From Methanosarcina sp. MTP4 (GTDB lineage: Archaea; Halobacteriota; Methanosarcinia; Methanosarcinales; Methanosarcinaceae): 64,000 bases of DNA. A model generated the notes under the pieces. The model had not been told where the DNA came from. It made no database searches and saw nothing but the letters and a program-made list of their open reading frames with translations. Below, one piece after another: positions 10,217 through 19,231 of the stretch. Both the position numbers and the translations under genes were made by a program. The stretch lies in NCBI RefSeq assembly GCF_000970045.1, contig NZ_CP009505.1:1488001-1552000 (forward strand), read 5' to 3'. Every line of letters begins with the position of its first letter. Within the stretch, counting starts at the first letter, position 1.

Positions 10217-10426
10217 ATGAGCAAAAAAATTAACTACATCTGCCCCAAATGCGGCAACACCTCATACGATACCGGCGAAATCCGCACAACCGGCGGCAGC
10301 ATCAGCAAACTCCTCGACGTCCAGAACAAGAAATTCACCCACGTATCCTGCAAACGCTGCAAATATACCGAATTCTACCAGGCCGATAGCAGCATGCTGG
10401 GGAACATTTTCGACCTTTTCACGTAA
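10217..10426 (+). CDS. Zinc-ribbon nucleic-acid-binding-like protein
   Basis: A 69-residue protein with two zinc knuckles, CPKCG at residues 9-13 and CKRCKY near residue 45, and a glycine-rich turn between them. This is the layout of the small Zn-ribbon family of PF09855/DUF2082 type, predicted to bind nucleic acid. A clear AAGGAG site precedes ATG 10217. It is transcribed away from the TPR gene, so the pair shares the 10062-10216 promoter region. Confidence 0.8.
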   Translation: MSKKINYICPKCGNTSYDTGEIRTTGGSISKLLDVQNKKFTHVSCKRCKYTEFYQADSSMLGNIFDLFT

Positions 10427-13057: not shown

Positions 13058-13522
13058 GTGAAGCGGGAAGTAGAACGGGATAGGGAAATCGAAGCAGAAA
13101 TTAAAAGAGGGGGAGACATTCCGGAAAAGGGCAGGAAAGTACCCTCCGGAAAAAGCAGATACGAAAAACCGTACCACTTACTTTTGGCTATCTTCCTCGG
13201 AGCCATTCTCCTCTACACCTTCTACATAGGCCAGCTCCTCTGGGGCATAATCACTGACATTCTCATCCTGAGGCTGTTCTTCCTCATGAGACAGGAAAAG
13301 CGCTATTTCCGGGAGTACGACCTTAACGAAGACGAAGCAGGGACTCCACATGACCCCAAAATGAAGCGGAAGGTCAGGCTGGCAAATATACTGCTCACGT
13401 TGTTCGTGCTAGGGCTGGTCATCTATTCTTATTTCACTTACCAGTTCATCTGGGGGATTGTTGGCGGGCTGATGATCCTGCTCTACATGCACATGCTGCT
13501 CTTTTCTGGAGATAATCTCTGA
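13058..13522 (+). CDS. Small membrane protein with two LonB-anchor-like hairpins
   Basis: I start this 154-residue protein at GTG 13058, about 10 nt after a GGAGAGGG site. After a charged N-terminus (1-35) it has two transmembrane hairpins (about 38-75 and 110-150) joined by an acidic loop. Each hairpin resembles the membrane segment inserted in LonB, encoded 1.6 kb downstream: LonB IYSYFVGQLLWGIIAG against IYSYFTYQFIWGIVGG and LYTFYIGQLLWGIITD here. It has no ATPase or protease domain. It may assemble with LonB or have arisen from its anchor; the resemblance is direct, the role is inference. Confidence 0.75.
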   Translation: MKREVERDREIEAEIKRGGDIPEKGRKVPSGKSRYEKPYHLLLAIFLGAILLYTFYIGQLLWGIITDILILRLFFLMRQEKRYFREYDLNEDEAGTPHDPKMKRKVRLANILLTLFVLGLVIYSYFTYQFIWGIVGGLMILLYMHMLLFSGDNL

Positions 13523-14001: not shown

Positions 14002-14766
14002 TCAGAGGCCTTCCAGGCGTTCCCGGGTTAAATCGATGGCTTCTTTGATTTTTTCGTTGTCCGGCTGGTCTTTCAGGAGGGTTTCCTGTATTTCGAGGGC
14101 TTTTTCGAGTTTTTCTCTGGCTTCTTCAGCCTTTTCGGGGTCCATCTGTTTAAGACAGTTTCCAAGCTGGCTGAGGGTGGTGGAGAGTTCTGCCTGGTAG
14201 CCGGGGTTGTCGGGTTTTTCTTCGAGGAATTTGGAGTAGATTTCGACTGCGGCGTTCAGGGCTTCTTCGGCTTCATTGTAGGAGGCGGTTTCGGTGAGGA
14301 GGGCGCCGTAGTTGTTGAGGATTTCACCGGCAGAGGAGCGGAATACGGAGTTTTCGGGGTCCCTGGTGAGGAGTTTGGCGTAGATTTCGCGGGAGAGGGC
14401 GTAGGATTCGGCGGCTCGGGGGGTGTCTCCTTTGCTTTTCAGGAGGTTTCCCATGCTGCTCAGGGTTGTGCCCATATAGTGCTGGTAGTCGGAGTTTTCG
14501 GGGTCTTTTTCGAGGAGGGTGCCGCCGACTTCGAGGGTTTTTTCGTAGGTTTCGAGGGCTTCGTCGTACTTCTTTGCGGAGTAGAGGATTCCGCCGCGGG
14601 TGAAGAGGATGTAGTAAAGGGCATCCGTGGAGTTTGCTGAGCGGGCGGATTTTTCTGCCCGGTCAAGAGTCTCAAGGGCTTTTTCCAGGTTGCCTTTCTT
14701 GATCTGGGCCACGGCTTTGTGAATCTGCTTGAGGAGGAGGAGGTTTTTTACTTTACTTCTGGCCAT
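14002..14766 (-). CDS. TPR-repeat protein
   Basis: A 254-residue protein of about five TPR units, with repeated YQHYMGTTLSSMGNLL and YQAELSTTLSQLGNCL type segments. The N-terminus is basic (MARSKVKNLLLLKQ), unlike the MxESPEK start of the two closest relatives, so it is a more distant paralogue. A GGGGAAC stretch lies 10 nt before ATG 14766. It is divergent from lonB, with 367 bp between them. Confidence 0.87.
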   Translation of the reverse strand: MARSKVKNLLLLKQIHKAVAQIKKGNLEKALETLDRAEKSARSANSTDALYYILFTRGGILYSAKKYDEALETYEKTLEVGGTLLEKDPENSDYQHYMGTTLSSMGNLLKSKGDTPRAAESYALSREIYAKLLTRDPENSVFRSSAGEILNNYGALLTETASYNEAEEALNAAVEIYSKFLEEKPDNPGYQAELSTTLSQLGNCLKQMDPEKAEEAREKLEKALEIQETLLKDQPDNEKIKEAIDLTRERLEGL

Positions 14767-15133: not shown

Positions 15134-17272
15134 ATGGAGAATAATGTTAATCAGAACATGGACGAGTCTAAAGAGAGGGTGGACGAGTCTCTTCATAAAA
15201 TGGACGAGCGAGACGACGTTAGCCCTAAACTGGACGAGTCTGAAGCCAACCGGAAAGTGAATGAGCCGGAGGTGAATGAGCCGGAAGCAAACCAGAAGGT
15301 GGGCGAGTCTGACCAGAACACGGATAAGCCTGAGGCTATGCTTTTAGAGGAATCCGACCCTCAAGACGAGGATGTTGATATCGATTTCCACTTTGAGGAA
15401 ACTTCGAATATCGATGTCCCAAAACTCCTGATTGACCAGGTGCTCGGGCAGGAGCACGCGGTTGAAGTCGTGAAAAAAGCAGCCAGCCAGAGGCGGCATA
15501 TCATGATGATCGGGACCCCGGGTACGGGGAAGTCTCTTCTTGCAAAAGCGATGGCGGAGCTCCTTCCTAAAGAGGAACTCAAGGATATCCTTGTGTACCC
15601 GAACATGGAAGACCTGAACAACCCTAAGATCAGGGAAGTTCCGGCCGGGAAGGGCAGAGAAATTGTCATGGCTCACAAAATGGAAGCAAGAAAGAAAGCC
15701 CAGGCCCGGAACATGCTCATGATGCTCTTCGTGGTGGGCATTATTATTTACTCTTATTTTGTCGGACAATTACTCTGGGGAATCATTGCCGGTATTATGA
15801 TTCTCATGCTGACCCGCCAGTTCCTGCCAAAAGAGGAAATGATGATCCCGAAACTGGCGGTTTCCAACTATGACAAGGAACACGCACCTTACATTGACTC
15901 AACCGGCGCCCACGCAGGGGCTCTCCTCGGCGATGTCAGGCACGACCCCTTCCAGTCCGGAGGGCTTGAGACCCCGGCCCACGACCGTGTGGAAGCCGGC
16001 GACATCCACAAAGGCCACAAAGGGGTGCTTTTCATCGACGAAATCAACACCCTCAGGCTTGAATCCCAGCAGAGCCTGCTGACCGCGCTGCAGGAAAAGG
16101 AGTACCCGATTACCGGGCAGTCCGAGCGGAGTTCCGGAGCACTTGTTAAGACCGAACCCGTACCCTGTGACTTCATCATGATCTCTGCAGGAAACCTTGA
16201 TGCGGTCCAGAAAATGCACCCTGCTCTCCGGTCCAGGATAAAAGGTTATGGGTACGAGATCTACATGCGGGAGTCCATGGAAGACACCGCTGAGAACCGG
16301 AAGAAACTGGTCCGCTTCGTAGCCCAGGAAGTTGTCCGGGACGGGCATATCCCTCACTTTGACGAGGGTGCCGTAAAGGAAATTATCCGGGAAGCCCGGA
16401 GAAGGGCAGGCCGGAAAGGTCACCTTACCCTGAAACTCCGTGACCTCGGCGGGCTTGTCCGCGTGGCAGGAGATATCGCCCGCTCCGAAGACGCTCCACT
16501 GACGAAAACCGAGCACGTGCTTGCCGCAAAGCGGATAGCCAGATCCATCGAGCAGCAGCTTGCCGACCGCTACCTGGAACAGAAGCAGGACTACTCGTCT
16601 TTCCTGAGAAGCGGCGCAGCCGTTGGCAGGGTCAACGGGCTTGCTGTCATGGGCGGAGACTCCGGGATCGTGCTTCCCATCGTATCCGAAGTAACCCCCT
16701 CAATGTCAGGGGGCGAAGGGCGTATTATTGCAACCGGTAGGCTCAAAGCCATTGCAAAAGAAGCGGTACTTAACGTTTCCGCGGTTATCAAAAACATGAC
16801 CGGTGCCGACATAGCAACCCACGACGTCCATATCCAGTTTATCGGGACTTATGAAGGCGTGGAAGGGGACAGCGCGTCGGTTTCCATTGCTACTGCCGTC
16901 ATCTCTGCCCTGGAGAAGATTCCTATTGACCAGAGCGTGGCGATGACCGGGTCTCTTTCGGTAAGGGGGGATGTCCTGCCTGTGGGCGGGGTCACCTACA
17001 AGATCGAAGCTGCGGCCCAGGCAGGCATCAAAAAAGTCATCATTCCGAAAGCCAATGAGGCGGATGTCCTGATCGAAAAGAGGTATAGGGACAAGATCCA
17101 GATCATCCCGGTCTCTTCGATTGCGGAAGTCCTGGAACACAGCCTTGTGGGCCCGAAGAAGAACAGCATTGTAGAGAAACTCAAGAACATCACGAAACTG
17201 AGTTTTGATGTGCCGGACGTTGCCCAGGCTGCGTCCGTACAGGCCAGGAACTGTTTAGGGTACGGGAACTGA
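15134..17272 (+). CDS. lonB: Archaeal membrane-bound ATP-dependent Lon protease (LonB)
   Basis: This 712-residue protease is anchored to the inner face of the membrane and degrades proteins using ATP. It has an AAA+ domain with Walker A GTPGTGKS (127-134) and Walker B VLFIDEIN (298-305), a two-helix membrane insert between them (about 194-227), and an S16 protease domain with catalytic Ser580 (EGDSAS) and Lys623 (GVTYK). Odd here is an extra N-terminal region of about 85 residues, very acidic and built from degenerate repeats of MDES and NEPE type. The usual LonB starts near the IDVPKLLIDQVLGQ segment. The first ATG is 15134; a later start would remove part of the acidic region. Confidence 0.95.
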   Translation: MENNVNQNMDESKERVDESLHKMDERDDVSPKLDESEANRKVNEPEVNEPEANQKVGESDQNTDKPEAMLLEESDPQDEDVDIDFHFEETSNIDVPKLLIDQVLGQEHAVEVVKKAASQRRHIMMIGTPGTGKSLLAKAMAELLPKEELKDILVYPNMEDLNNPKIREVPAGKGREIVMAHKMEARKKAQARNMLMMLFVVGIIIYSYFVGQLLWGIIAGIMILMLTRQFLPKEEMMIPKLAVSNYDKEHAPYIDSTGAHAGALLGDVRHDPFQSGGLETPAHDRVEAGDIHKGHKGVLFIDEINTLRLESQQSLLTALQEKEYPITGQSERSSGALVKTEPVPCDFIMISAGNLDAVQKMHPALRSRIKGYGYEIYMRESMEDTAENRKKLVRFVAQEVVRDGHIPHFDEGAVKEIIREARRRAGRKGHLTLKLRDLGGLVRVAGDIARSEDAPLTKTEHVLAAKRIARSIEQQLADRYLEQKQDYSSFLRSGAAVGRVNGLAVMGGDSGIVLPIVSEVTPSMSGGEGRIIATGRLKAIAKEAVLNVSAVIKNMTGADIATHDVHIQFIGTYEGVEGDSASVSIATAVISALEKIPIDQSVAMTGSLSVRGDVLPVGGVTYKIEAAAQAGIKKVIIPKANEADVLIEKRYRDKIQIIPVSSIAEVLEHSLVGPKKNSIVEKLKNITKLSFDVPDVAQAASVQARNCLGYGN

Positions 17273-17881: not shown

Positions 17882-19231
17882 ATGAACGAAATTATGCAGA
17901 ACATCAAATTTTTTGACTGCAGGGTGATTGAGGGCAGTTCAAGTTCGGTCATCCTGGACAACGGGAAGATCGAGGAAATTTCCAGGAACTTCATGAGGGG
18001 AGCAGGCATAAGGGCCCTTTGCGGAGGTTCCTGGGGTTACACGGCCGTGGAAGGGGAACTGGACCTTGAAAGGGGAGTTCGGGACGCTGCAAAACTTGCT
18101 TTTGCCATGGACGAAAACACCCCGAAAGAAGAAGTCGAACTTGCAGCCGTGGCCCCTCCTGTGGTAAAGAATCTCCCCCGGATAAAGATCGATCCCAGGG
18201 ATGTCCCAATCGAGGAAAAAGTAGAGCTTTTGAAAAACATCGAGTCCCGGGCCAGGGTAGAGGGCGTCCACAGCACGAAAGTGATGTTCTCCGAATCTGA
18301 ATTCAAGATCATGTACCGGAATTCCGAAGGTGTGGAATGCGAGTACGAGCTTTTGAACACGGGTTTTGCTGTTTCTGCGGTTGCGACCGAAAACGGGGTC
18401 TACCAGGCAGGCCGGGAAAGCCGTTTCGGCTACGGCTATGAAGTTTTTGATAATGTGGATGCCCCCGGGCTTGCGGAAAAGGCAGGAAAAACCGCAGTCG
18501 AACTTCTGGGCGCAAAGACCCCCAAGGGAGGGACAATGCCCGTGCTCCTTGACCAGGAACTTGCAGGCGTCTTTGCCCATGAAGCCGTGGGGCATGCCTC
18601 GGAAGCGGACCTGGTGCTCGAAGGGGACTCCATTCTTGCAAACCGGATCGGGGAACAGATTGCTTCTCCGCTTGTCACGATCATCGATGACCCGACCCTG
18701 CATGAGTTCGGGTACTATCCTTTCGATGCCGAAGGGGTTGAGTCCAGCCGGACTGAAATCATCAGAGGCGGGGTCCTTAATTCTTACCTCCATTCCCGGG
18801 AAACCGCAGGGAAGCTCGGGGAAGAGACCGGGAATCCCGGTAATTCGAGGGCTCAGGGCTATTCCATGCCCATTGTCCGGATGAGCAACACTTTCATCGA
18901 TAATGGGGACTCAAAGTTTGAGGAGATGCTCGAATCTGTCCGGGACGGGATGTACCTTATAGGGTCCCGGGGCGGACAGGTAAACACCGGGGAAGGGATT
19001 TTCCAGTTCAACGCCGAAAAGGGTTACCTGATCAAGAACGGGGAACTTACTGAACTTGTCAGGGACGTGTCCCTTTCGGGAAAGACCCTTGAGATCCTGA
19101 ACCACGTGACCGGGGTTGGGAACGACCTGAAAATGACTGCCGGTAGGTGCGGGAAAGGCGGGCAGCTTGCGCCCGTTTCCGACGGTTCTCCCCATCTTGC
19201 CATTTCCCGGGCTCTGGTGGGAGGTGCCTGA
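17882..19231 (+). CDS. tldD: TldD family metalloprotease
   Basis: A 449-residue member of the TldD/PmbA family. The zinc site HEAVGH (HExxxH) sits near residues 237-242 in the expected context FAHEAVGHASEADLV, and the C-terminal barrel ends with GKGGQ. TldD forms a heterodimer with TldE and cleaves unfolded peptides; in bacteria it matures microcin B17 and degrades CcdA, while the archaeal substrate is unknown. The gene is followed after only 2 bp by tldE, whose ribosome-binding site lies inside its last codons. The length is normal for the family. Confidence 0.93.
   Translation: MNEIMQNIKFFDCRVIEGSSSSVILDNGKIEEISRNFMRGAGIRALCGGSWGYTAVEGELDLERGVRDAAKLAFAMDENTPKEEVELAAVAPPVVKNLPRIKIDPRDVPIEEKVELLKNIESRARVEGVHSTKVMFSESEFKIMYRNSEGVECEYELLNTGFAVSAVATENGVYQAGRESRFGYGYEVFDNVDAPGLAEKAGKTAVELLGAKTPKGGTMPVLLDQELAGVFAHEAVGHASEADLVLEGDSILANRIGEQIASPLVTIIDDPTLHEFGYYPFDAEGVESSRTEIIRGGVLNSYLHSRETAGKLGEETGNPGNSRAQGYSMPIVRMSNTFIDNGDSKFEEMLESVRDGMYLIGSRGGQVNTGEGIFQFNAEKGYLIKNGELTELVRDVSLSGKTLEILNHVTGVGNDLKMTAGRCGKGGQLAPVSDGSPHLAISRALVGGA

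Follow-up and report, generated by a model that had tools for sequence, protein, structure and literature searches.

A small gene near lonB encodes a predicted four-helix membrane protein

The locus analyzed here raises the question of why a small membrane protein lacking a catalytic domain should be encoded near the gene for LonB, the archaeal membrane-bound ATP-dependent protease. The gene for this mini-protein lies 1.6 kb from lonB (Table 1) in a 64,000-nucleotide stretch of the Methanosarcina sp. MTP4 genome, which we refer to as the window. Its 154-amino-acid reading frame begins with GTG and is open throughout, and the start site is backed by relatives: those in the window's genus also have GTG at this position, and most other Methanosarcina-type genomes have ATG. 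The mean pairwise dN/dS was about 0.11 within the genus and 0.15 to 0.21 in two other groups (last 123 codons). Because these values are low, we conclude that the frame is a real, maintained gene. By part, the within-genus dN/dS was 0.08 and 0.06 in the hairpins versus 0.33 in the linker. At loci L033 to L035, L038, L039, L041, and L042, the conserved frame starts behind a stop codon and contains no ATG, GTG, or TTG before helix 1, and its codons are under purifying selection (dN/dS about 0.2); the frame at L036 opens in the same way.

Table 1. Coordinates of the mini-protein gene, its parts, and its neighbors in the window
Feature	Position	Strand	Basis or remark
LonB-anchor mini-protein gene	13058..13522	+	Predicted cytosolic N terminus, hairpin 1, charged linker, hairpin 2; orthologs in 30 genomes
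Hairpin 1 (HP1), residues 41-76	13178..13285	+	LonB-type core; Y53, Q59, W62, G63 conserved
Charged linker, presumably cytosolic	13286..13387	+	Conserved stretch EAGTPHDP
Hairpin 2 (HP2), residues 111-146	13388..13495	+	Most LonB-like; GxxxG kept
TPR-repeat gene between mini-protein gene and lonB	14002..14766	-	Conserved block; TPR matches in L005 ortholog
lonB, archaeal membrane-bound ATP-dependent protease	15134..17272	+	TIGR00764, 938.7 bits vs cut-off 516.6
Membrane hairpin of LonB (residues 194-229), from which both hairpins are proposed to derive	15713..15820	+	LonB profile
tldD-like gene downstream of lonB, block end	17882..19231	+	Name assigned from its sequence

Pfam and NCBIfam scans, together with a LonB profile, found hairpins only and no catalytic domain. 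There was no NCBIfam match (TIGR00764) to the AAA+ or protease domain of LonB in the 154 residues, and no degron or substrate-binding domain was recognized in the Pfam and NCBIfam scans. The N-terminal stretch is charged. Judged from its sequence, the product is probably a membrane protein of four helices, arranged as two LonB-type hairpins, without an ATPase or protease domain. A single-chain AlphaFold2 model from seven sequences had a pLDDT of 73 and a pTM of 0.51; because of this moderate confidence and its continuous long helices, the model was not used for topology. A fold search of the PDB with it returned no match at an E value of ≤0.001. An AlphaFold2 model of LonB from five close sequences had a pLDDT of 34, and the closest PDB relative of LonB found from sequence, 3k1j, is without the hairpin.

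Both hairpins are homologous to the membrane hairpin of LonB

In a BLASTP comparison of the mini-protein with the LonB of the window, HP2 aligned with an E value of 2e-14 (43% identity over 51 aa), and an alignment over HP1 had an E value of 1e-11. We then scored both hairpins with a LonB-only profile of 21 Methanosarcinaceae LonB inserts from which mini-protein sequences were excluded, and obtained 34.0 bits for HP1 (residues 41 to 73) and 43.4 bits for HP2 (residues 103 to 147). When residues were permuted only within the hydrophobic, polar/small, and charged classes, none of 20,000 shuffles attained the real score (maxima of 29.6 for HP1 and 31.2 for HP2, against 37.1 and 46.1), and the reversed LonB profile had no match in 112 Methanosarcinaceae genomes. 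The forward profile matched the window's own genome at four places only, namely, LonB, HP1, HP2, and one other protein, and across the 112 genomes it found LonB almost everywhere, plus the hairpins of the orthologs. Conversely, when the mini-protein was the query and one of these genomes had a match but no ortholog, the best match was the LonB insert, with one exception. A mini-protein profile run over 238 genomes of the class found the 30 orthologs, and the other matches listed were almost all LonB; in the family and class searches together, LonB was the best nonortholog match in nearly all genomes.

Because the profile matches are specific, the shuffled and reversed controls are empty, and the reciprocal searches return LonB, hydrophobic composition does not explain the likeness. 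Thus, both hairpins are homologous, at the level of this segment, to the LonB membrane hairpin. These results bear out the preliminary description, which had seen two copies of the LonB anchor and no catalytic domain and had raised the concern that the resemblance might be that of any two hydrophobic helices; the similarity exceeds that level.

The likeness is greatest within the lineage. Over 36 anchored positions, the mean BLOSUM scores to Methanosarcinaceae LonB were 76 for HP1 and 85 for HP2, versus 39 and 55 to other archaeal LonB, and the mean bit scores with own-lineage LonB were 25 and 33, versus 4 and 0 with LonB of the haloarchaeal type. In HP2, the likeness begins before the first helix (KRKVRLAN versus RKKAQARN in LonB). 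The similarity of HP1 to HP2 (mean 58) is lower than that of either hairpin to LonB. Most likely, the hairpin segment would have been copied from the neighboring lonB gene before Methanosarcina and its sister genera separated; a single internal duplication would look the same here as two independent copyings of the LonB hairpin, because LonB evolves slowly and the segment has only 36 residues.

We also considered whether the mini-protein could be a divergent member of DUF1673 (PF07895), whose members are Methanosarcina membrane proteins with a similar number of helices, so that its likeness to LonB would be incidental. It has a subthreshold Pfam match to this family (25.7 bits versus a cut-off of 30.4), as do five of seven relatives. 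However, the match is not carried by the hairpins, since it stays at 23.4 to 23.6 bits after they are scrambled, and hhalign against a profile of the DUF1673 proteins of the same genome gave a probability of 5%. In addition, the N-terminal MGWCP motif of the family, named for arCOG06827 (PMC4158269), is absent from the mini-protein, and the LonB signature is absent from DUF1673. Membership in DUF1673 was therefore rejected, and we regard this origin as extremely unlikely.

The mini-protein gene is kept near lonB but not in an operon with it

Orthologs are present in 30 genomes of the window's genus (g1), genus g4, and g13 (most of them); the named loci L004 and L005 suggest that g13 is Methanosarcina. 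All 30 lie on the contig and strand of lonB, 2 to 4.5 kb upstream of the LonB hairpin, and the block has the conserved order mini-protein gene (+), TPR gene (-), lonB (+), tldD-like gene (+). The gene had been described as next to lonB. This is right as to distance, but the TPR gene at 14002 to 14766 stands between the two on the opposite strand, and because of it the mini-protein gene and lonB do not form one operon. Five g13 genomes (G085, G090, G091, G098, and G102) have lonB without an ortholog, the upstream region being empty of the mini-protein gene in G091 and G102, and the ortholog in G089 is broken in its 5' part.

The proximity to lonB in 30 of 30 genomes is compatible with a functional link, although conserved gene order says little about function when the genomes are closely related. 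The earlier interpretation of the protein as a LonB partner that could join the ring, alter its gate, or recruit substrates is therefore retained in part: its anchor-only make-up and conserved placement agree with it, whereas the lack of an operon, the species that keep lonB without the mini-protein, and the presence of this hairpin in several other Methanosarcinaceae proteins encoded away from lonB do not.

Two further observations concern this neighborhood. Between 9222 and 14766 of the window, four minus-strand TPR-repeat paralogs are broken up by a zinc-ribbon-like gene (10217 to 10426) and the mini-protein gene, and the number of these paralogs differs among related genomes. The hairpin seems to be duplicated in tandem within lonB at L006 (2969 to 3228) and in G100, but the two 130-nt copies meet at NN, and the duplication was rejected as an assembly artifact.

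HP2 keeps the LonB pattern, and HP1 is altered

LonB, HP1, and HP2 have in common the pattern Y-x5-Q-xx-[W/F/L]-G, and the LonB hairpin is nearly invariant where the mini-protein occurs. The second helix of LonB also carries G-xxx-A/G, a pattern that favors helix packing, with G in 33 of 33 sequences and A or G in 31 of 33. HP2 has G-xxx-G in all 28 orthologs examined and shares with the archaeal LonB insert (TIGR00764, MEROPS S16) the basic segment before the first helix; its Trp is lost in some species. In HP1, the small residue of LonB is replaced by Asp67 (G-xxx-D; 26 of 28 orthologs), and Arg72, five residues farther on, is present in 28 of 28. Thus, HP2 is still LonB-like and HP1 is altered. 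The mini-protein differs from LonB in this Asp and Arg of the second HP1 helix, in having two hairpins per chain, and in lacking the AAA+ module and the protease domain.

The LonB hairpin is reused in other proteins of Methanosarcinaceae

The hairpin is not restricted to LonB and the mini-protein, as had been supposed, since other Methanosarcinaceae proteins carry it away from lonB. More than one LonB-hairpin match was found in 53 of 112 Methanosarcinaceae genomes, a count that includes the mini-protein orthologs, versus one of the 129 genomes sampled from other families. Outside Methanosarcinaceae, every genome but one gave the LonB profile a single match, which was LonB itself. When family f5 was searched with the hairpin of its own LonB, LonB was recovered, and none of the 55 genomes encoded a small extra protein. 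In one f5 genome, two partial hairpin matches fell on different contigs, probably because lonB is split there.

The carriers are of several types. In type C (L046, L049, L051 to L053, L126, L127, L130, L143, and L157), the hairpin is followed by a soluble C-terminal domain with the signature SDSKVYExPxFFxGIP...GDRLxIxG...; the one member scanned had no Pfam match. L046 is encoded in the window's own genome (G000:C1:225747-225923), where, at 225.7 kb, it is separated by about 6 kb from a group of eight clustered DUF1673 genes. Type D comprises small proteins in which the hairpin runs into a PLDc_N-like segment, matched by Pfam in the two that were scanned (L047, L048, L050, L128, L129, L131 to L134, L145 to L149, L152, L154 to L156, and L158 to L160); two of them have a DUF1673-type MGWCPN N terminus in front. 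Type E is represented by L141 (G105:C123), with a LonB-type hairpin fused ahead of a Yip1 domain, and short single-hairpin proteins occur as well. The mean BLOSUM scores to Methanosarcinaceae LonB were 73 for type C and 67 for type D, and LonB is central among HP1, HP2, C, and D.

Could such hairpins have arisen independently, with Y-x5-Q-xx-W-G simply favored for short hairpins in these membranes? The segment has 36 residues, the motif is common to many Methanosarcinaceae proteins, and the Trp of HP2 can be lost. However, the confinement of the LonB profile to LonB in all but one genome of other families, the lack of small extra proteins in f5, and a likeness that runs past the membrane segment into the stretch before the helix all make convergence very unlikely.

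A more serious possibility, though on balance a doubtful one, is that repeated copying in Methanosarcinaceae has spread the LonB hairpin as a prefabricated membrane element, that the mini-protein now has nothing to do with LonB, and that its location marks the site of copying. In the listed genomes, proteins that combine the hairpin with a soluble domain, PLDc_N, Yip1, or a DUF1673-type N terminus are encoded away from lonB. This arrangement fits the explanation, as do the excess of extra hairpins in Methanosarcinaceae and the interposed TPR gene on the opposite strand. It leaves unexplained the invariant Q and G, the GxxxG of HP2, and the likeness in the segment before the helix of LonB. Moreover, the unlinked hairpin proteins could likewise be partners of LonB.

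Anchor-only proteins also occur in genomes inferred to be haloarchaeal

Reuse as a mere membrane module also fails to explain a parallel in a second family. For family f20, which we take from its LonB sequence to be haloarchaeal, the search profile consisted of three haloarchaeal-type LonB hairpins. LonB was found in 79 of 79 genomes, and about a third had weaker extra matches, part of which are second lonB genes; the reversed f20 hairpin profile gave no extra matches. Small proteins with two or three haloarchaeal-type hairpins, with the signature Y[SA]-xxx-[AG]-x-Q-x-LLG, are encoded at L161, L162, and L164 to L168 (genomes G311, G326, G328, G233, G288, G277, and G290). L163 (G290:C9, a 173-aa frame) and L169 (G340:C1, a 217-aa frame) are stand-alone fragments of the LonB insert with the pattern VPAGxGxRVVAA...hairpin...VPxVVA and no other part of LonB.

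The proteins of L161 to L169 resemble the mini-protein in being small and built of LonB-type hairpins, and the six haloarchaeal-type accessory proteins scanned had no Pfam family above cut-off. They differ in their signature, in lying away from lonB in the genomes inspected, and in not being recognizable as orthologs. A profile of the accessory hairpins alone matched 172 of the 194 genomes searched in the class, mostly in LonB-sized frames. Accessory hairpins score highest with the LonB of their own lineage, a result that is biased for the haloarchaeal-type set, which was found with that profile, but not for HP1 and HP2, which were not so selected. As to a viral origin, no relative of either the methanogen mini-protein or the haloarchaeal-type protein was found in IMG/VR. 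Lineage-matched anchor-only proteins in these putatively haloarchaeal genomes favor a LonB-related role for the mini-protein, without proving contact.

A possible modulator of the LonB membrane ring

What might such a role be? The conserved gene, the specific likeness of both hairpins to LonB of the same lineage, and the conserved proximity to lonB support a partner role. We lean, tentatively, toward the reading that the mini-protein is a catalysis-free LonB-anchor protein that inserts into or around the LonB membrane ring and modulates it. Its hairpins would pack on those of LonB, inside or around the ring, through the inherited Y-x5-Q-xx-W-G-xxx-small face, and this packing could tune the access of membrane substrates or the assembly of the ring. 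HP2, which retains the LonB packing motif, would dock on the ring, and HP1, whose second helix contains Asp67 and Arg72, would be the modified unit that alters it. In another AAA+ protease, YME1L, the membrane anchor drives hexamerization (PMC5095350).

Alternatively, the hairpins might reach LonB for another purpose, with the mini-protein itself being degraded or its linker (EAGTPHDP) handing membrane proteins to LonB. The linker is conserved between the hairpins, and in bacteria the FtsH modulators HflK and HflC control the proteolysis of membrane proteins (PMC12048511). However, within the genus the linker has changed more rapidly than the hairpins have, and a degron or substrate-binding domain was not recognized; we find a recruiter or substrate quite unlikely. 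For our preferred reading, modulation of the ring, HflK and HflC are a parallel in proposed role only, as membrane partners that control an AAA+ membrane protease (PMC12048511). The mini-protein is unrelated to them in sequence and probably derives from the anchor of the protease itself, and Pfam found no SPFH/Band 7 domain in it or its relatives.

MicroProteins are small proteins reduced to the domain through which a larger relative makes its interactions. The mini-protein would be similar in that, of a multidomain enzyme made in the same cell, it keeps nothing but the presumed assembly element, with the hairpin as a putative interaction element. It differs in being membrane embedded, archaeal, and present in double copy, and its heteromer with LonB is putative. 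A wider proposal, which we consider rather unlikely, is that archaea at least twice, in Methanosarcinaceae and in haloarchaea, made anchor-only proteins of one to three hairpins that are matched to their own LonB and act as microProtein-like regulators inserting into its ring, with the carriers of PLDc_N, Yip1, and soluble domains belonging to the same LonB-docking set.

In the literature searched, in which subscription journals were thinly covered, we found neither a published description of such a mini-protein nor a dedicated regulator or membrane partner of LonB. In Haloferax volcanii, LonB is an essential protein with effects on cell shape and on the synthesis of carotenoids (PMC9263693). 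If the mini-protein is a regulator, its new aspect may be that the assembly segment of an enzyme acts alone, here membrane embedded, doubled, and archaeal. The lineage-matched anchor-only set, if real, would offer a direct way to study how the LonB membrane region is assembled and gated. It would also be an example, in a prokaryote and within the membrane, of an enzyme regulated by a protein that bears its anchor and nothing else. Even without contact with LonB, the repeated reuse of the hairpin of one enzyme within a single archaeal family would be an unusual route to new membrane proteins.
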